Of a stretch of DNA of 35,900 bases, positions 3,330 through 20,512 are shown piece by piece (positions within the stretch are counted from its first letter, which is position 1; every line of letters begins with the position of its first letter). Source of the stretch: Microcaldota archaeon (lineage in GTDB: Archaea > Micrarchaeota > Micrarchaeia > Micrarchaeales > Micrarchaeaceae); assembly GCA_014874295.1 (NCBI GenBank), contig JACWAL010000029.1, forward strand, positions 1 through 35,900. Direction: 5' to 3'. The notes beneath the pieces are model-generated. The model saw only the letters and a program-made list of their open reading frames with translations. It did not search any database and was not told where the DNA came from. The translations under genes were made by a program, and so were the position numbers.

Positions 3330-3680
3330 TCACTTCGGCGTCACTTCCAACACGTACTTTGAAACCACATCGGCTACCATGTCGAGCACCTTCCTGACGT
3401 TGGCGATCGTGTTAGTGCCCGTGCAGATCATCTTACCATTCTTGAAGAGTATGATCGTGGCGCTGGGGTTGTTGACCTTGTAAATGGCCCCGGGGAACTG
3501 CTCGGGCTCATAGTCAACCCCCCTAACGTTCTTCGAGAGCGCATAAAGGTCCACGACCGCATGCAGCTCCGCCTTCACGACTATGCAGTTTATGCGTATG
3601 TTCGGCTTCAGAGTGTCGAAATTGATCTTCGCAGAAGCCTTTGCAGGCTGCTGGCTGCTCTTCGGAGTTCGTTGCGGCAT
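3330..3680 (-). CDS. Single-repeat TBP-domain protein
   Basis: Protein of 116 aa. After a Ser/Gln/Lys/Ala-rich N-terminus of about 28 residues there is one complete TBP repeat: INCIVVKAELHAVVDL, DYEPEQFPGAIYKVNNP, ATIILFKNGKMICTGTNT, then a helix VRKVLDMVADVVSKY. The EPEQFPG and LFxxGK elements match archaeal TBP, including the two Phe residues that in TBP intercalate into the TATA minor groove. Archaeal TBP normally has two such repeats (about 180 aa); here no second repeat exists in any frame before the stop or upstream of the start. Proteins made of one TBP domain have been reported in some archaea, so this may be a dimerising TBP variant or a paralogue. The ATG at 3680 lies about 21-30 bases from a TATA-like ATAATAAGG on the minus strand. 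An in-frame open extension to 3902 crosses the divergent promoter and is not credible. Confidence 0.82.
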   Translation of the reverse strand: MPQRTPKSSQQPAKASAKINFDTLKPNIRINCIVVKAELHAVVDLYALSKNVRGVDYEPEQFPGAIYKVNNPSATIILFKNGKMICTGTNTIANVRKVLDMVADVVSKYVLEVTPK

Positions 3681-3726: not shown

Positions 3727-3734
3727 TTTATAAA
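3727..3734 (+). promoter_or_regulatory. TATA box of the flavoprotein gene
   Basis: TTTATAAA lies about 30 bases upstream of ATG 3763, compatible with a leaderless or very short-leader transcript. It excludes the in-frame ATG at 3724, which would lie within or upstream of the TATA box. The 82-bp region is shared with the divergent TBP-domain gene. Confidence 0.6.
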
Positions 3735-3762: not shown

Positions 3763-4866
3763 ATGGAAACTGAGGTCGGGATTGTAGGGGGAGGAGTAGT
3801 GGGACTCTCGCTCGCAAGGGAGCTTGGCAACAGGGACATTTCGTGCACCGTATATGAGGCGAGGCAGAAGATAGGTGAGGGGGCCGACAGGGCATCGGGC
3901 ATACTCTCGAAGAGCGGCCTCGAGAGGCACGGCCTGGATTACAGCGATTCCGTAGTCAACGAGCTGTACGGGGCGCACTTCCATGCGGGCAGTGGTACGT
4001 TCACCGTGAGGGCAGCGGAGCCGAAGGCTTACGTCCTCGATAGGATTAGACTCGCGCAGTCGTGCGCGAAGAGCGCGGAGGAGAGCGGCGCGGAGATAAG
4101 GCTTGGGAAGAGACTCGACAGTGAGGGAATAGCGGCCATTGCCAAGCTGCACAGAGTGCTCGTCGGAGCCGACGGGGCGGTATCAAACGTCGCGAGCACG
4201 TTCGGCTTCCCGAAAATCGTGAGGAGGGTGCTTACGTACAAGGCGGTGTACAATGGAGTGGATGTGGAGGACAAGCGCATGGTGGGTCTCTATTTCGATA
4301 ACTCCATAACAAAGGGGTTCTTCGGATGGACTGCTCCCTACTCTGAAACTGGGCTTGAGGTCGCCGTCGGCATAGAGGACAGGGCGAAGGCGAACGGAAA
4401 GAGGGCGTTCGACGCATTCACGCGCCTGGAATCCATAAGAGACATGCTCGAAGGAAAGGAGCCGATAAAGGAGGATGCGAGCCTCATCCCATTGGCCGCA
4501 AGGTCCAGGACCGTCAAGGGCAATGTATTGCTCGTGGGCGATGCGGCTGGTCAGGTCAAGGCAACGACAGGAGGGGGAATAATCTTCGGCGTTGGCTGCG
4601 CGAAGACGGCAGCGGAATCAATAGCCAGCCATGTCAAGAAGGGCAAGAGCCTTGTTTCCTACGAGAGGGATTGGAGAAAGAGATACGGCACCGATTTGGC
4701 GCTGCACAGGCTCCTGCACGGATATTACTCGAGCGTCGGCCAGACAGGCCTCAGCATGGCGTTCAGCTTCATGAAGTCATTGGGAGCGGAACGGCTGCTG
4801 AGTTCCTTCGGCGACATGGACAGTCCGAGCAGGACGTTGAGGGGTGTGGTGTTCAGGCGTACGTGA
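3763..4866 (+). CDS. FAD-dependent geranylgeranyl reductase family protein
   Basis: Protein of 367 aa. It begins with a dinucleotide-binding Rossmann motif (GIVGGGVVGLSLARELG), followed by the E-A-R end of the second strand. It has the mid-protein GADGAVSNVASTFG segment and the C-terminal VGDAAGQVKATTGGGI motif that binds FAD in the geranylgeranyl reductase/p-hydroxybenzoate-hydroxylase superfamily. In archaea, members saturate the isoprenoid chains of membrane lipids, but other flavoprotein oxidoreductases share these motifs, so lipid saturation is the likely but unproven role. The length is slightly short of the roughly 390-400 aa common in the family. It is divergently transcribed from the single-repeat TBP gene and has no downstream partner on its strand. 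Confidence 0.8.
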   Translation: METEVGIVGGGVVGLSLARELGNRDISCTVYEARQKIGEGADRASGILSKSGLERHGLDYSDSVVNELYGAHFHAGSGTFTVRAAEPKAYVLDRIRLAQSCAKSAEESGAEIRLGKRLDSEGIAAIAKLHRVLVGADGAVSNVASTFGFPKIVRRVLTYKAVYNGVDVEDKRMVGLYFDNSITKGFFGWTAPYSETGLEVAVGIEDRAKANGKRAFDAFTRLESIRDMLEGKEPIKEDASLIPLAARSRTVKGNVLLVGDAAGQVKATTGGGIIFGVGCAKTAAESIASHVKKGKSLVSYERDWRKRYGTDLALHRLLHGYYSSVGQTGLSMAFSFMKSLGAERLLSSFGDMDSPSRTLRGVVFRRT

Positions 4867-7102: not shown

Positions 7103-8230
7103 ATGGCTTCAAACAAGAAGAGCAAGGATGTAAAGAAGGCTGGAAGTAGCCAGGCACATCCGCGCGCGGCCACGCACGCCGCCATGGCTGGTTCCAGCAA
7201 GATTGTAGTGGACAGAAACAATAGACTCAACGTCGTCAACGATGAGACGAAGAAGAGGGGCAGACCAAGGATGTCTGCCGATGAGGACGCGAAGGAAAAG
7301 GCATCTTACACGGGCAGGGACGTCCAGGAGAAGAGCTGCCCGAGCTGCGGCAGCACTGATATAATCTTTGATACAGAGAAGGGAGAGCGCGTCTGCAACA
7401 ACTGCGGGCTCATAATAGAGGAGAACACCACGGACAGCGGGCCGGAATGGAGGGCATTCGACCCTGAGCAGAAGGCGGCAAGGGCAAGGACCGGCGCTCC
7501 CGTGCAGTTCAGGAAGCTAAACAGGGGTCTCGTGACAGAGATAGACCTCTACAACAAGGATATAAGGGGTGTTCGCATACCATCGAAGAGGCAGGCGCAG
7601 CTCTACAGGATGAGGAAGTGGCACAAGCGCGCGAGCATAGCGAGCTCAAGCGAGCGCAACTACCTCATAGCACTGCCAGAGCTGAACAGGGTATCGAGCT
7701 ATCTTGGACTGCCAGACAACATACGCGAGACTGCCGCGCTTCTCTACAGGAAGTGCGTCCAGAACAACCTCATACGCGGACGTCCGATAGAGATAATCGT
7801 GCAGGCCGCGATCTATGCGGCATGCAGGGAGTCAGGCATGCCTAGGACTCTCGACGAAATAGCGAGCATATCTGGAGTGGCGAAGAAGGACGTTGGGCGC
7901 GCCTATAGGATCATAGCGCACGAGCTCGACCTCAAGATACCGCTGACCGATCCGGTATCGTACGTACCCAGGTACGTCAACGCGCTCAAGCTGAGCGGCG
8001 AGGCGCAGGAGAAGGCCATAGAGCTGCTCAAGGTGGCGATGAAGAAGGGCCTGCTCTCCGGCAGGAGCCCTACTGGAGTCAGCGCCGCCGCCGTGTATAT
8101 AGCCGGCGCACTGGCCGGCGAGCGCAGGACGCAGAAGGAGGTCGCTGACGTGGCGGGCGTGACCGAGGTAACAATCAGGAACAGGTACAGGGAGCTAAAG
8201 GAGCAGCTCAACCTGGATGTGAACCTGTAG
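7103..8230 (+). CDS. tfb: Transcription initiation factor B (TFB/TFIIB) with N-terminal extension
   Basis: Protein of 375 aa. TFB bridges TBP-TATA DNA and RNA polymerase and sets the start site. The zinc ribbon is C79-x2-C82-x15-C98-x2-C101 (CPSCGSTD and CNNCG), followed by a B-reader/linker (GPEWRAFDPEQ) and two cyclin repeats: about residues 180-270 (ALPELNRVSSYLGLP, then VQAAIYAACRESGMPRTLDE) and about 275-370 (YVNALKLSG, then GVSAAAVYIAGAL). The last repeat ends with a recognition helix (VADVAGVTEVTIRNRYRELK). Archaeal TFBs usually start close to the zinc ribbon; here about 78 extra residues precede it, rich in Lys/Ser/Ala and containing KKRGRPRM, an AT-hook-like core. The start is fixed by a GGTGA Shine-Dalgarno four bases upstream. 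A strong hairpin plus T-tracts follows the stop. Confidence 0.97.
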   Translation: MASNKKSKDVKKAGSSQAHPRAATHAAMAGSSKIVVDRNNRLNVVNDETKKRGRPRMSADEDAKEKASYTGRDVQEKSCPSCGSTDIIFDTEKGERVCNNCGLIIEENTTDSGPEWRAFDPEQKAARARTGAPVQFRKLNRGLVTEIDLYNKDIRGVRIPSKRQAQLYRMRKWHKRASIASSSERNYLIALPELNRVSSYLGLPDNIRETAALLYRKCVQNNLIRGRPIEIIVQAAIYAACRESGMPRTLDEIASISGVAKKDVGRAYRIIAHELDLKIPLTDPVSYVPRYVNALKLSGEAQEKAIELLKVAMKKGLLSGRSPTGVSAAAVYIAGALAGERRTQKEVADVAGVTEVTIRNRYRELKEQLNLDVNL

Positions 8231-9887: not shown

Positions 9888-11840
9888 ATGGACGAAAAAT
9901 CAGAAGGCACGACGCACGAGCGCATGAACGTTTTCAAGAGCATAGAGGAGATGCTTCCTCCAGAGGCCGGGTTCGTCAAGGCGGACTACGAGGGACCTGA
10001 CATAGCCGTGTACCTGAAGAATCCTGCGGCTGCCTACCAGAATGAGAACATAATCAGGAACATAGCCTCTGCCATAAAGCGCAAGATAATCCTCAGGGGG
10101 GACAGCCAGGCACTGATGGACCCGAAGGAGGCCGTGGAGGAGATAAAGGTGCTCGTGCCCGAGGAAGCAAAGATTAGCAACATAAGGTTCGTGCCGGAGT
10201 TCGGCGAGGTCTACATAGAGGCACTCAAGCCCGGGCTGGTAATAGGCAAGAACGGCTCCGTGCTGAAGAGCATAGCGATAAAGACGGGCTGGCTTGCCAA
10301 GACGCTGCGCATGCCGACGATGAACAGCGACACGATAAACGGCGTGCGCAACCTGATGTTCACCGAAAGCCCATTCAGGAAGAAGTTCATGCTCGGCATA
10401 GGCAAGAAGATAAACGCACCGATAGTCAAGAGCGAATGGCTCAAGGCGACCGCCTTGGGAGGGTTCCGCGAGGTCGGGAGGAGCAGCCTGCTTCTTGAAA
10501 CCCCGCACTCGAAGATAATGATAGATTGCGGTATCAGCCCCGAACCCGGGATAAAGGGCCTGGACGCGAACGCCAGCGGCGATGTCAACAAGGCGTTCCC
10601 TTACCTTGACAGCGCCAACCTCTCGATAAATGAGCTTGATGCGGTAGTGCTCACGCACGCGCATATGGACCATGCTGGGTTCATACCGTACCTTTTCAAG
10701 TATGGATATGATGGGCCAGTGTACTGTACCCCACCTACGAGGGACCTGATGGCGCTGCTGCTCAACGATTACACAAAGCTTGTCGCAAGGAGCGGAGGCA
10801 CTCCGCTGTATGACGAGAAGGACGTCAAGAAGATGCTGATGCACACTATAACTAGGGACTACGGTGAGGTCACCAACATAACGGACGAGCTCAAGCTCAC
10901 GTACCACAATGCGGGGCACATACTGGGAAGCGCCACCGTGCACCTGCACGTCGGTGAGGGTATGTACAACGTAGTGCACACTGGCGACATGAAGTATGGA
11001 TTCACGAGGCTGTTCGACCCGGCGAGGAATCGCTACCCCAGGATAGACTCGCTCTTCATAGAGAGCACGTATGGAGGCAATGGCGATATAACGCCGAACA
11101 GACATGATGCCGAGAAGAGCCTCATGGACACGATACAGCACACCATTCAGAATGGGGGCAAGGTGCTCATACCACTTTTTGCTGTGGGGAGGAGCCAGGA
11201 GGTACAGCTCGTGCTCGAGAATTATATGGCGAACACAGGGCAGTACAGGATAGAGGCACCAGTCTTCCTCGACGGGATGATACTCGAGGCCAGCGCAATC
11301 CACACAGCCTATCCAGAGTATCTCAAGGAGAGCCTCAAGAACAGGATACTCAACAACCGCTCCCCATTCGAGAGCGAAATCTTCGAGGTCGTGAAGGGCG
11401 AGCGCGAAGAGGTCCTTGATGGAGGGCCTGCGATAATACTCGCGAGCGGCGGGATGATGAACGGGGGCGCGAGCGTCGAATACTTTAAGCACCTGGCGGA
11501 GGATCCGAAGAACCTGCTGGTGTTCGTCGGATACAACAGCTCGAACTCGCTCGGGCGCAGAATACAGAGCGGGACGAGGGAAGTGCCGCTGCCGGATGAG
11601 GACGGCAGACTTAGGCCCGTGAAGATCAACATGGAGGTGAAGACAGTGGAGGGTTTCTCGGGACACAGCGACCGGAGGCAGCTGATCAGCTTCATGCAGG
11701 ACATACGACCGAAGCCGAAGAGCGTGTTCACGATGCACGGTGAGGAGCACAAGTGCGAGGACCTCGCAAGGGGTGCGGAGCGCTCGCTGCACATAGACGC
11801 GAGGGCACCGAGGAACCTCGACTCCACGAGGCTGAAGTAG
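9888..11840 (+). CDS. fttA: KH-domain beta-CASP ribonuclease, transcription termination factor FttA (aCPSF1)
   Basis: Protein of 650 aa, the normal length for archaeal aCPSF1. N-terminal KH domains (including KPGLVIGKNGSVLKSIA at about 114-130) bind RNA. The metallo-beta-lactamase domain carries the zinc motif H257-A-H-M-D-H262 and GGFREVGRSS, and a later GHILGSA His. The beta-CASP insertion includes IPLFAVGRSQEVQ, and the return to the MBL domain holds ILASGGMMNGG and the final EGFSGHSD and TMHGEEH histidines. The family cleaves RNA 3' ends at U-rich sites and terminates transcription in archaea. It lies between psmB and the M1 aminopeptidase, seven bases upstream of the latter. Nothing about the active site looks degraded. 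Confidence 0.97.
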   Translation: MDEKSEGTTHERMNVFKSIEEMLPPEAGFVKADYEGPDIAVYLKNPAAAYQNENIIRNIASAIKRKIILRGDSQALMDPKEAVEEIKVLVPEEAKISNIRFVPEFGEVYIEALKPGLVIGKNGSVLKSIAIKTGWLAKTLRMPTMNSDTINGVRNLMFTESPFRKKFMLGIGKKINAPIVKSEWLKATALGGFREVGRSSLLLETPHSKIMIDCGISPEPGIKGLDANASGDVNKAFPYLDSANLSINELDAVVLTHAHMDHAGFIPYLFKYGYDGPVYCTPPTRDLMALLLNDYTKLVARSGGTPLYDEKDVKKMLMHTITRDYGEVTNITDELKLTYHNAGHILGSATVHLHVGEGMYNVVHTGDMKYGFTRLFDPARNRYPRIDSLFIESTYGGNGDITPNRHDAEKSLMDTIQHTIQNGGKVLIPLFAVGRSQEVQLVLENYMANTGQYRIEAPVFLDGMILEASAIHTAYPEYLKESLKNRILNNRSPFESEIFEVVKGEREEVLDGGPAIILASGGMMNGGASVEYFKHLAEDPKNLLVFVGYNSSNSLGRRIQSGTREVPLPDEDGRLRPVKINMEVKTVEGFSGHSDRRQLISFMQDIRPKPKSVFTMHGEEHKCEDLARGAERSLHIDARAPRNLDSTRLK

Positions 11841-16078: not shown

Positions 16079-18532
16079 TTATATCTGCGGGCCTGGCCCC
16101 GCTGTTGCTGTCTGGGGCTGCTGAGCATCGCTTATTACCTGCGCGTCGACCACTGCGCTGCCAGGCTCGAGGCGCATCATCCTGACTCCGCTTGCGGCCC
16201 TGCCAGTCTTTCTTACCGACGATACAGGGAACTGTATCGATATTCCTGTAGAGCTTATCAGGAGAATGCTATCGCTGTCCTTGACCCTCAGGGACTTCAC
16301 GACCCTGCCAGTCTTGTCGTTCGCTTTTATATTAAGCACTCCCCCGCCTCCCCTGTGCTGCAGCCTATACAGCCCGAGCTCTGTCACCTTGCCGAACCCC
16401 TTCTCCGTGACGGACATGACGTAATCCGTGCCCGTCACCGGGATGACGTTGGTCACCTTGTCGTTGTGCCTGACGCGGATCCCCCTGACGCCGTGCGCAG
16501 TCCTGCTCGTCGGCCTGAGCTCCTGCTCAGCAAACCTTATCGACTTGCCAGAGGTGGTTGAGATGAACAGCTCTGACCTGCCATCTGACACACAGACATC
16601 CGCAAGGCAGTCGCCCTCGCGGATGGGTATCGCATTAATCCCGTTCACCCTCGGGTGGGAGAACTTCTCGGCGCGCACGCGCTTTATCACTCCTTTCTCG
16701 GTCACGAACACCATGAACGAGTCTAAGAACTCCCTGGTGTTTATGATTGTGTCTATCTTCTCGCCGTCCTGCAGTTTGAACAGGTTGATGGCGGCTTTGC
16801 CGACGCCATATCTGTCTCCCTCAGGTATCCTGTACGCCTTCATCCAGTAGGCCCTTCCCTTGGTCGATATGGCGAGGAGCATGTCCTTCGTCTTGCAGTA
16901 GAGGGTCTGCTTCGCGAAGTCACCCTCCTTGAGTTCTATGGCCCTGATACCCCTGCCTCCCCTCTCCTGCAGCTTATAGCTCTTGGCCGGCAGGCGCTTT
17001 ATGTAGTTGTTTCCGGTGAGTATTATCGTCGTGTCCGTGTCCTCTATTAGGTCCTCCTGCTCGATCTCCACAGGGAGCTCGCTGCGCTCTATCTTCGTAT
17101 GCCTCGGCACTGCATAATGCTGCTTGATGTAGTCCGTCTCGTCCTTTATTATCGCGTATATCAGGTCTGGGTCGGCGAGCGTCTCGGTGTACTGCCTGAC
17201 CTTGGCATTCATGTCGGCCTGCTCCGTCTTCAACGATGAGGCCTCGAGGCTCGTCAGCTTTGATAGCTTCATGTCCAGTATCGCGTTGGCCTGCTTCTCT
17301 GATATTGAGTAGACGGTCATCAGCGAGGACCTTGCCACCTTCGTGTCCTCACTCTTCTTAATGAGCGTCACGACCTCGTTTATGTTCGCCGTGGCTATCA
17401 GCAACCCGTCGACTATGTGCAGCCTGTCCTGGCACGCCATGAGGTCGAACCTTGTCCTGTTGGTCACGACGCCGAACCTGTAGTCCACGAATATCTTTAT
17501 GAACTGCCTCAGGTTGAGCGTGAGCAGCGAATTATCCATGACCGCTATGTTCATAACAGGGACCGTGATCTGCAGTTGTGTGTGCGCATACAGGAGGTTG
17601 AGTATGTAGTCCGCATTGGCATCCTTCCTCAGCTCTATCGCTATGCGGATGCCCTCCTTGCCACTCTCGTCCCTTATGCTCGTCACGCCCTGCAGCTTCT
17701 TGGCCTTTGCAAGCGCAGCTATCTGTTCCATTAGCTGTGATTTGTTGACGTTGTAAGGTATCTCTGTTATGATTATCGCGCTGCCCGACTTGCCCTCCTC
17801 TGTTGTAGAGGTGCCTCTTATCGTTGCGGAACCTCTGCCCGTCAGGTACGCGGAGTACAGCCCGCTGTTGTAGAAGACAGATCCGCCTGTTGGGAAGTCC
17901 GGCCCCTTTATGTATCCCGTAAGCTGCTCAGAGGTTATCTCTTTGTTCGCTATGAAGGCCTTTATCGCATCGCACACCTCGCCAAGGTTGTGCGGGAGTA
18001 TATTCGTGGCGACCCCGACCGCTATGCCGGAGCTGCCGTTGATCAATAGGTTTGGCGCCTTTGATGGCAGGGTGAGTGGCTCATCCTCAGTGTTGTCGAA
18101 GTTTGGTACCATCATGACAGTGTTCTTGTCTATGTCCTCGAGAATCTCCTCGGCCAACTTTGTCAGTCTTGCCTCTGTATAACGCGCAGCAGCTGGCGGA
18201 TCTCCATCAATCGAGCCCGTATTGCCCTGACCGGCGACGAGGGTGTGATTCATCGTAAATGATTGGGCCATCCTCATCAGGGCGTCATATATGGCAGCGT
18301 CTCCGTGCGGGTGATACTTTCCCATCACTTCACCCACAATCCTCGCGCTCTTCTTCGTGGGCTGGCTGTGGACGTTGTTTATCCTGTACATGCCGTAGAG
18401 AATCCTGCGCTGCACAGGTTTGAGTCCATCCCTTGCATCCGGAAGGGCCCTTCCGACTATGACGCTCATGGCATAGTCTATGTAGCTGGTCTGCATCTCC
18501 TTCTCTATCGCGGACTCTATTACCTCTGCCAT
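16079..18532 (-). CDS. gyrA: DNA gyrase subunit A
   Basis: Protein of 817 aa. It is the breakage-reunion subunit of type IIA topoisomerase, which introduces negative supercoils using ATP through GyrB. The catalytic Tyr118 lies in AAARYTEARL. The DNA-gate helix reads KYHPHGDAAIYDALMRMAQS. The C-terminal beta-pinwheel contains the GyrA-box QERGGRGI, the hallmark that separates gyrase from topoisomerase IV, plus several degenerate pinwheel repeats (SRTAHGVRGIRV, HRGGGGVLNI, GRAASGVRMMRL). At the positions equivalent to E. coli Ser83 and Asp87 this protein has Ala79 and Asp83. It starts four bases after the gyrB stop, a classic gyrBA operon. Gyrase in archaea is generally considered bacterial in origin. 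Confidence 0.97.
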   Translation of the reverse strand: MAEVIESAIEKEMQTSYIDYAMSVIVGRALPDARDGLKPVQRRILYGMYRINNVHSQPTKKSARIVGEVMGKYHPHGDAAIYDALMRMAQSFTMNHTLVAGQGNTGSIDGDPPAAARYTEARLTKLAEEILEDIDKNTVMMVPNFDNTEDEPLTLPSKAPNLLINGSSGIAVGVATNILPHNLGEVCDAIKAFIANKEITSEQLTGYIKGPDFPTGGSVFYNSGLYSAYLTGRGSATIRGTSTTEEGKSGSAIIITEIPYNVNKSQLMEQIAALAKAKKLQGVTSIRDESGKEGIRIAIELRKDANADYILNLLYAHTQLQITVPVMNIAVMDNSLLTLNLRQFIKIFVDYRFGVVTNRTRFDLMACQDRLHIVDGLLIATANINEVVTLIKKSEDTKVARSSLMTVYSISEKQANAILDMKLSKLTSLEASSLKTEQADMNAKVRQYTETLADPDLIYAIIKDETDYIKQHYAVPRHTKIERSELPVEIEQEDLIEDTDTTIILTGNNYIKRLPAKSYKLQERGGRGIRAIELKEGDFAKQTLYCKTKDMLLAISTKGRAYWMKAYRIPEGDRYGVGKAAINLFKLQDGEKIDTIINTREFLDSFMVFVTEKGVIKRVRAEKFSHPRVNGINAIPIREGDCLADVCVSDGRSELFISTTSGKSIRFAEQELRPTSRTAHGVRGIRVRHNDKVTNVIPVTGTDYVMSVTEKGFGKVTELGLYRLQHRGGGGVLNIKANDKTGRVVKSLRVKDSDSILLISSTGISIQFPVSSVRKTGRAASGVRMMRLEPGSAVVDAQVISDAQQPQTATAGPGPQI

Positions 18533-18536
18533 GTCC

Positions 18537-20450
18537 TCACACGTCCAGGAAGTTCACGTCCTTCGAGTGCTCCTCCAAAAACTTTCTCCTCTGCTCGACA
18601 TCAAGGCCCATGAGCACCGAGAATATCGAGTTTGCCAGCTCGGCGTCCTTTATCATTATCCTCTTGAGCACCCTCCTCTTCGGATCCATCGTGGTCTCCC
18701 ACAGCTGCTCCGGATTCATTTCCCCAAGACCCTTATAGCGCTGCACTGCCGCATTGCCGTCGAACTGCTTCAGCCGTTCGTTCAGCTCGGCGTCGTTGTA
18801 GGCGTAGTGTACCTCCTTGCCTTTTGAGACCTTGTAGAGCGGCGGCTGCGCTATGTAGACGTAGCCGCGGTCTATCAATGGCCTTAGGTATCTATAGAAA
18901 AACGTCAGCAGAAGCGTGCGTATGTGGCTGCCGTCGACGTCTGCATCGGTGAGGAATATTATCTTGTGGTATCGCGACTTGTTTGCGTCAAACGATTCCT
19001 TTATGCCCGTACCGAACGCCGTGACCATCAGGTGTAGTTCCTTGTTCGAGAATATCTTCTCGTCAGTCGCCTTCTCGACGTTGAGCACCTTGCCGCGTAG
19101 CGGCAGTATCGCCTGGTAGAAGCGATCCCTGCCCGATTTCGAACTGCCTGCCGCGCTGTCCCCCTCCACTATGAATATCTCTGTCTTCTCGGGGTCGTCT
19201 TCCGTGCAGTCCGCCAATTTCCCTGACAGCACGGAGCCCTCGAACATGCCCTTCTTCCTCGCCAGATCCCTCGCCCTTCTGGCCGACTCCCTCGCCTCCG
19301 CTGCATTCTGCACCTTCGCCAGCACCTTCGCGGCCTCTGCGGGGTTCTCCTCCAGGTAGGTGGAGAGCGTGGAATAGACTGTACTGTCGACTATGCTCTT
19401 CACGCTGGCGTTGCCAAGCTTCTCCTTAGTCTGGCCTTCGAACTCCGGGTTCTGCATCAGTATCGAGATTATCGCGACCAGACCCTCACGTGTGTCGTCC
19501 CCTTCGACGGTCGCGCCGCCGTTCCTGCCGTTCCTCTTGTTTGACTGGATATATGAGGTTATGGCGCGCGTCAGGGCCGAATGGAAGCCGGTGACGTGGG
19601 CGCCGCCCTCTCCAGTCTTTATACGGTTGACGAAGGAGACTACTTCCTCGGAATAGTCATCGACGTACTGGAAGACCACCTCGACCTTGATTTCGTCGCT
19701 GACCTGCTTCTGTATCGTTATCGGCCTGGTCAGCTCGTTCTTCTTGCCGCGCACGAATGCGAGGAAATCGATCAGCCCTTTCTCCGAAACGAAGTACTTC
19801 GGGTTGTCCTGCCCTCCCCTAGTATCATGCAGCTCGATTACGAGGCCGGGGTTCAGGAACGCGAGGTCGTGTATTCTCTCCTCCACTGCTATGCTGTCGA
19901 ACTTGCTTACCGAGAATATCTCCTTATCTGGCTTGAACCTTATCATGGTGCCCGTCTGGCTGGTCTCCCCCACTACCTGCAGTTCCGAAGTCGGCACTCC
20001 CCTGCTGAACGTCTGTTTGTACTCCTTTCCGTCTTTCTTCACGGTAACGACAGTATACTCGGACAGGGAATCCACCACCGTGAGGCCCACGCCGTGCAGC
20101 CCCCCAGATACCTTGTAGATCTTGTTGTTGAACTTCGCGCCGGAGTGCAGCGACGTCATTATTACCTCGAGGGCGGACTTGCCGGCCTTGGGTATTATAT
20201 CGACGGGTATGCCCCTGCCATTGTCCGATACCTCGGCGACGTCGATGCCCTCCTCATCAGAGAGCGTAACCGTAATCCTCGTGCAGAAGCCAGCTATCGC
20301 CTCATCAATCGAATTATCGAGCACCTCGTAAAGGAGATGGTTGAAGCCTGCGCTGCTCGTACTGCCTATGTACATCGCGGGCCTCTTCCTGATGCCCTGC
20401 GGCCCGGAAAGCACGATTATGTCCTTTGCGGAATAGCTGTTCTCATCCAT
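18537..20450 (-). CDS. gyrB: DNA gyrase subunit B
   Basis: Protein of 637 aa. It provides the ATPase and TOPRIM parts of gyrase. The GHKL ATPase has EVLDNSIDEAIAGFC, DNGRGIPVDI and GGLHGVGLTVVDSLSE. The transducer follows, then TOPRIM with EGDSAAGSSKSGRDR, LRGKVLNVEKA and the metal-binding DADVDGSHIRTLLLTF. The C-terminal QRYKGLGEMNPEQLWETTMD segment is intact. The length matches the short GyrB form without the proteobacterial insert. I start at ATG 20450 because GGGAGG lies just upstream as Shine-Dalgarno; a TTG six codons earlier would place that element inside the gene. The promoter probably lies around the TTTTAAGCTTAAAA palindrome. Confidence 0.97.
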   Translation of the reverse strand: MDENSYSAKDIIVLSGPQGIRKRPAMYIGSTSSAGFNHLLYEVLDNSIDEAIAGFCTRITVTLSDEEGIDVAEVSDNGRGIPVDIIPKAGKSALEVIMTSLHSGAKFNNKIYKVSGGLHGVGLTVVDSLSEYTVVTVKKDGKEYKQTFSRGVPTSELQVVGETSQTGTMIRFKPDKEIFSVSKFDSIAVEERIHDLAFLNPGLVIELHDTRGGQDNPKYFVSEKGLIDFLAFVRGKKNELTRPITIQKQVSDEIKVEVVFQYVDDYSEEVVSFVNRIKTGEGGAHVTGFHSALTRAITSYIQSNKRNGRNGGATVEGDDTREGLVAIISILMQNPEFEGQTKEKLGNASVKSIVDSTVYSTLSTYLEENPAEAAKVLAKVQNAAEARESARRARDLARKKGMFEGSVLSGKLADCTEDDPEKTEIFIVEGDSAAGSSKSGRDRFYQAILPLRGKVLNVEKATDEKIFSNKELHLMVTAFGTGIKESFDANKSRYHKIIFLTDADVDGSHIRTLLLTFFYRYLRPLIDRGYVYIAQPPLYKVSKGKEVHYAYNDAELNERLKQFDGNAAVQRYKGLGEMNPEQLWETTMDPKRRVLKRIMIKDAELANSIFSVLMGLDVEQRRKFLEEHSKDVNFLDV

Positions 20451-20512
20451 GTAAAAAGGCCCTCCCAAACCAGCGTTTTCCCGTCGGTATATCGGTCAAT
20501 ATTGTATTTGGA

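Follow-up and report, generated by a model that had tools for sequence, protein, structure and literature searches.

The TATA-binding protein (TBP) is described as a two-repeat protein that all promoters of archaea and eukaryotes require. That it arose when a one-repeat ancestor was duplicated is inferred, and we know of no living example of such an ancestor at work. In a review, the archaeal TBP is given two repeats (PMC7289017); a DPANN survey only ticks TBP as present (PMC8407392). Single-lobe or monopartite TBP-domain proteins of some archaea have been noted by Ravarani et al. 2020 (PMC7221094), citing Brindefalk et al. 2013. A single TBP fold is also found at the N-terminus of bacterial RNase HIII, but there it is fused to a nuclease, and its sequence match is negligible (12 bits). 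Our searches of the literature found no account of archaea with a one-repeat TBP only.

Here we analyse a 35,900-nt stretch of DNA (the window), which is contig C26 of an 824 kb archaeal draft genome (42 contigs, 94.5% complete) and carries a gene for one TBP repeat. The features of the window that bear on this gene are as follows.

3330..3680, minus strand: one-repeat TBP, type B paralogue (TBP-B); ATG at 3680, 116 aa, PF00352 in a single stretch
3585..3587, minus strand: codon 32 of TBP-B, Cys for Asn in a column table of TBP groups
3727..3734: TATA box TTTATAAA, a perfect palindrome, in the intergenic region of the divergent genes for TBP-B and the flavoprotein
3763..4866, plus strand: FAD-dependent flavoprotein (PF01494), divergent conserved neighbour of TBP-B
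7103..8230, plus strand: TFB with two cyclin repeats and a Zn ribbon; no other TFB was found in the genome, and it is the expected TBP partner
9888-11840: aCPSF1/FttA

The TBP-B protein runs MPQRTPKSS...VLEVTPK, with a short basic N-terminus ahead of a TBP repeat at residues 28-109. PF00352 matches it once (71.4-71.6 bits, E 5.6e-20, residues 28-109 against profile positions 2-85 of 85; curated cut-off 22.9 bits), and no second TBP repeat was found in the longer open frame of 202 codons around the gene. The claim of the first-pass annotation, that a complete gene encodes one full repeat and no second, is thus borne out. In a phmmer search of solved structures, TBP-B matched both the one and the other lobe of archaeal TBPs (1mp9, E 3e-32), and the NCBIfam TBP models were matched over half their length, far below their cut-offs. 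An AF2 model based on an alignment from 12 relatives had a mean pLDDT of 92, and Foldseek aligned it with a single lobe of the TBP of M. jannaschii (2z8u) at an rmsd of 1.0 A over 84 residues. According to this model, the fold of TBP-B is that of one TBP lobe. TBP-B does not have the two repeats in one chain of a canonical archaeal general TBP; as a 116-aa protein with one domain, it falls among the stand-alone single-TBP-domain proteins of archaea, as do the single-lobe proteins noted in PMC7221094.

Half of a normal TBP gene could be produced by misassembly or by a gap in the sequence, and the genome is a draft of 42 contigs. However, the gene is whole and lies 3.3 kb from the contig end, it is intact in two further species of the genus (loci L078 and L080), and genes of this kind are conserved in single-contig genomes. 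The assembly error that had been named as a possible refutation is thereby excluded, and we give an artefact of either kind practically no credence. The named homologues of TBP-B are nearly all from Candidatus Micrarchaeota, the closest being 97% identical (isolate DBS2-1.bin97).

Like canonical archaeal TBPs (S. acidocaldarius 1mp9, M. jannaschii 2z8u, P. woesei 1pcz/1ais), TBP-B has the repeat fold, the intercalating Phe and the YEPEQFPG stirrup. In contrast to these proteins, it has one repeat rather than two, and the micrarchaeal one-repeat subunits nearly all carry a stirrup of the C-lobe type. In the column table, TBP-B keeps Val34, Phe62, Phe79, Ile85 and Thr87 along with the YEPEQF stirrup. 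Phe62 (in YEPEQF) and Phe79 (in IILF), which we take from their role in TBP structures to be the intercalating pair, are both present, as had been claimed, so that the Phe pair and the TFB-contact stirrup expected of each lobe of a general TBP are in place. The base-contacting Asn of a canonical general TBP is not: residue 32 is Cys, also in L078 and L080, whereas it is an invariant Asn in all other TBP groups compared, and Asn in type A of the same genome. Position 32 is equivalent to Asn69/Asn159 of yeast TBP, which contact bases near the dyad, and the Asn missing from TBP-B of this genus is probably base-contacting. The YEPEQF signature occurs in nearly all one-repeat proteins, while P. woesei and S. 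acidocaldarius carry it in the C lobe and not in the N lobe; we infer that a subunit would need it if it may face TFB from either position. Genome G090 has, beside a normal one-repeat TBP, a TBP-domain protein that is strongly diverged and without YEPEQF (L224, G090:C12:19300-19539; 42 bits).

A profile search of the whole genome gave exactly two PF00352 matches, both one-repeat and on different contigs. The match outside the window is of a second type.

C20:18506-18754: one-repeat TBP, type A; 117-aa protein, PF00352 86.9 bits

No two-repeat TBP was found in this 94.5% complete genome. Among 60 relatives of the order searched, 57 had TBP matches and none had a convincing native two-repeat TBP. 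Exactly two single repeats were found in 31 of the 37 genomes of family f1, and exactly one in 15 of the 23 genomes of family f2. Most of these genomes are draft MAGs. The single-contig genomes agree with this pattern, with two one-repeat TBPs each in G010, G011, G026 and G032 and one in G039; G037, in three contigs, has one. The genome search for a two-repeat TBP that the first-pass annotation had proposed has therefore found none, either in the organism itself or in closed relatives, which makes it likely that dimers of one-repeat TBPs are the general factor.

Adjacent double TBP matches were seen in only two of the 60 relatives, at G012:C43 and G059:C39. The two-repeat TBP of G012, with canonical lobes that are 43% identical, was set aside as a probable contaminant; its contig is 8.4 kb long with a GC content of 0.41, and other ORFs on it read like an MFS transporter, a transposase and cytochrome b (names by reading alone). 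At G059:C39 (L103, family f2), the contig ends inside an in-frame tandem copy of TBP-A (residues 1-33 against 104-136), in which 98 of 99 nucleotides are identical. This tandem is possibly a new fusion toward a two-repeat TBP, or else an assembly effect.

Beyond the order, most families of the class within Candidatus Micrarchaeota have the one-repeat TBP as their usual form. The statement that monopartite TBP-domain proteins are known in some archaea, with unclear function, agrees with the literature on single-lobe TBPs, but it understates how widely this form prevails in the class. In family f7, genomes G073, G079 and G082 (L233, L198, L213) hold two or three one-repeat TBPs each, and the pair in G079 is 1.3 kb apart.

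In a tree of TBP lobes, types A and B each form one clade (support 97/87 and 100/99, respectively). Family f1 has both types, family f2 has A and sometimes B (L097-L102), and only B was seen in G127 and G244, which are 92% and 88% complete (L211, L210). Type A shares a common neighbourhood, eL21 - Rpo4 - DUF655, with the one-repeat TBPs of other families and with two-repeat TBPs; one neighbour cluster of this kind holds 13 type A, 21 other one-repeat and 13 two-repeat loci. Since the two-repeat TBPs of sister families share this neighbourhood, we regard type A as orthologous to the general TBP. It is also the only TBP of the closed genome G039. The type B gene of the window does not occupy the eL21 - Rpo4 - DUF655 position, and type B loci have a different neighbourhood, in which a homologue of the FAD flavoprotein lies beside 19 of 22. 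A homodimer had been proposed as the general factor should the genome lack a normal TBP. No such TBP was found, but the general orthologue is type A and not the window gene; the latter is a derived paralogue and more plausibly a further TBP or a partner of A. In sister micrarchaeal families, two-repeat TBPs (for example L105, L106, L108) sit at the orthologous locus but have two lobes per chain. The literature consulted reports only the existence of single-lobe archaeal TBPs, without function; the micrarchaeal one-repeat form is the sole TBP, lies at the general locus and comes as two paralogues. The A/B pair and the synteny with the general locus were likewise absent from the literature searched.

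Since both types are present in nearly all f1 genomes and both keep the intercalating Phe, we considered that A and B might be the halves of a split TBP, equivalent to its N and C lobes, and act as an obligate A:B heterodimer. This is improbable, because neither type sorts with the N or C lobes of other archaea, the two being paralogues inside the micrarchaeal group; moreover, many f2 genomes, closed G039 among them, carry A without B, and the A and B genes lie at unrelated loci. The specific assignment of A to the N lobe and B to the C lobe was rejected on the lobe tree and the A-only genomes.

The first-pass annotation was also correct in placing the gene near TFB and FttA and in giving it a promoter region in common with a flavoprotein, which is transcribed divergently. 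A TFB with two cyclin repeats was present in all 13 genomes checked and was the single TFB in 12 of them, including G000 and G039. In G037 (f2), which has a single one-repeat TBP, we found five TFIIB-repeat matches, which amount to an extra TFB-like protein in a 480-codon frame. The window also contains adjoining genes for bacterial-type DNA gyrase A and B (16079-20468, minus strand), in an archaeal genome.

The palindromic box TTTATAAA lies about 50 nt from the TBP-B ATG and 32 nt from the flavoprotein ATG. It is found at the same place in L078 and L080, and most other B loci have TATA-like elements. A recurrent TA-TTTAWA-SCTTTC was seen in the B-locus promoters of L066, L068, L071, L082, L088 and L089; read in the flavoprotein direction, this is GAAAGS followed by TATA, a pair resembling BRE-TATA. 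TTTAWA is enriched at -52 to -23 of predicted genes in G039, which has A only (12 against 2.4 expected, z 6.5), in G073 (35 against 6.1, z 9.6) and in G010 (34 against 11.8, z 6.4), indicating that one-repeat-only genomes use TATA boxes at the usual place. An EM motif search recovered TATA only in G039 and G073, and the motif from G073, AnnTTTATAAAT, had a reverse-complement correlation of 0.92. Greater TATA symmetry would be expected in one-repeat genomes, but we do not claim it, since forward and reverse TTTATA counts of 46:40, compared to 54:33 in two-repeat genomes, did not differ significantly (Fisher p 0.28). A symmetry difference first seen in G142 (13:4) did not replicate in further two-repeat genomes.

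Could the window gene be a non-general regulator, acting as a competitor or in a dominant-negative way by titrating A or TFB, for instance by autoregulation through the TTTATAAA box in common with the flavoprotein gene? B is dispensable in much of f2, it has lost the dyad Asn in this genus and its own promoter carries the palindromic TATA. Nevertheless, every other position of B that contacts DNA or TFB is kept, and nearly all f1 genomes retain the gene, beyond what would be expected of an accessory repressor. We regard such a role as rather unlikely.

A half-TBP has one of the two lobes of the saddle, so that contact with DNA in the canonical way would take two of them, and a monomer would span just half of a TATA box. 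In G039, with a single type A and one TFB, one repeat must suffice, most simply as a homodimer. We therefore think it quite likely, judging from sequence, that one-repeat TBPs pair to form the saddle, with A:A serving as general factor and B supplying a second kind of subunit. Type A would most likely act as an A:A homodimer on near-palindromic TATA boxes, to which each subunit would bring an intercalating Phe pair and a YEPEQF stirrup. Of these two identical stirrups, one would be bound by the single ordinary TFB, and direction would be given by the BRE. Type B probably arose by duplication of A before f1 and f2 split. It would most likely pair with A as a heterodimer (A:B), or else form an alternative B:B TBP whose contacts with bases at the dyad differ (Cys for Asn32 in this genus), and would not itself be the housekeeping factor. 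A monomer acting with TFB, or an unrecognised second lobe, could conceivably take the place of the dimer; the case for B alone binding TATA normally is weakened by Asn32Cys.

To place the one-repeat form in the history of the group, we used trees of RNA polymerase (RNAP), built from B' and A' and then from all four large-subunit pieces, with Pyrococcus and Sulfolobales from PDB alignments as outgroups; this outgroup is two rows only, one of them a composite of Sulfolobales chains. In the rooted trees, all 15 two-repeat rows formed one clade (support 100) nested inside the one-repeat rows, an arrangement also seen in the unrooted tree and again absent from the literature searched. In the lobe tree, which has 87 columns only, the micrarchaeal lobes all fell into one group, separate from both the N and the C lobes of other archaea (100/95), and placing micrarchaeal N with N or C with C was rejected (AU p 0.0035 and 0.0082). 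The two-repeat TBPs of most sister families have lobes that are 63-73% identical to each other, and probably come from a second, later duplication. These comparisons suggest that the two-repeat TBP was lost to one repeat in an ancestor and then re-made by a second duplication in the sister families, a direction that is favoured, not proven.

The two-repeat TBP may instead be ancestral in Micrarchaeota; gene conversion would then have made its lobes alike, and the one-repeat genes would derive from it by loss of one lobe, on one or more occasions. In L106 (G104) and L110 (G174), the lobe tree places the two lobes of a single protein next to each other, by either gene conversion or very recent duplication, which indicates that conversion probably happens. 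Moreover, the tests do not strongly reject a single clade of one-repeat families (AU p 0.041 for two RNAP subunits and 0.084 for four). On the other hand, with the outgroup included, the two-repeat clade is nested at several supported nodes inside the one-repeat families, and about four parallel losses would be needed, compared to one loss and one regain. An ancestral two-repeat TBP is a tentative alternative, which we would not favour. That the last common ancestor of Micrarchaeota had a homodimeric one-repeat general TBP, and that one sub-lineage re-invented the two-repeat form by duplication and fusion, is to us an evenly balanced proposition. Its stronger form, that no two-repeat state ever preceded the one-repeat state in the micrarchaeal lineage, has little support.

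A lineage with one-repeat TBPs only, beside sisters with seemingly re-fused, near-identical lobes, makes the duplication model of TBP testable in the tube. Whether a half-TBP can dimerise and bend TATA DNA, and whether polarity is left to TFB and the BRE, become questions for experiment. Our results suggest that the core initiation machinery of an organism can consist of one TFB and two interchangeable half-TBPs. If the last common ancestor did rely on a one-repeat homodimer and one sub-lineage later re-made the two-repeat form, Micrarchaeota would present a living before-and-after of the event that is assumed to have created TBP.
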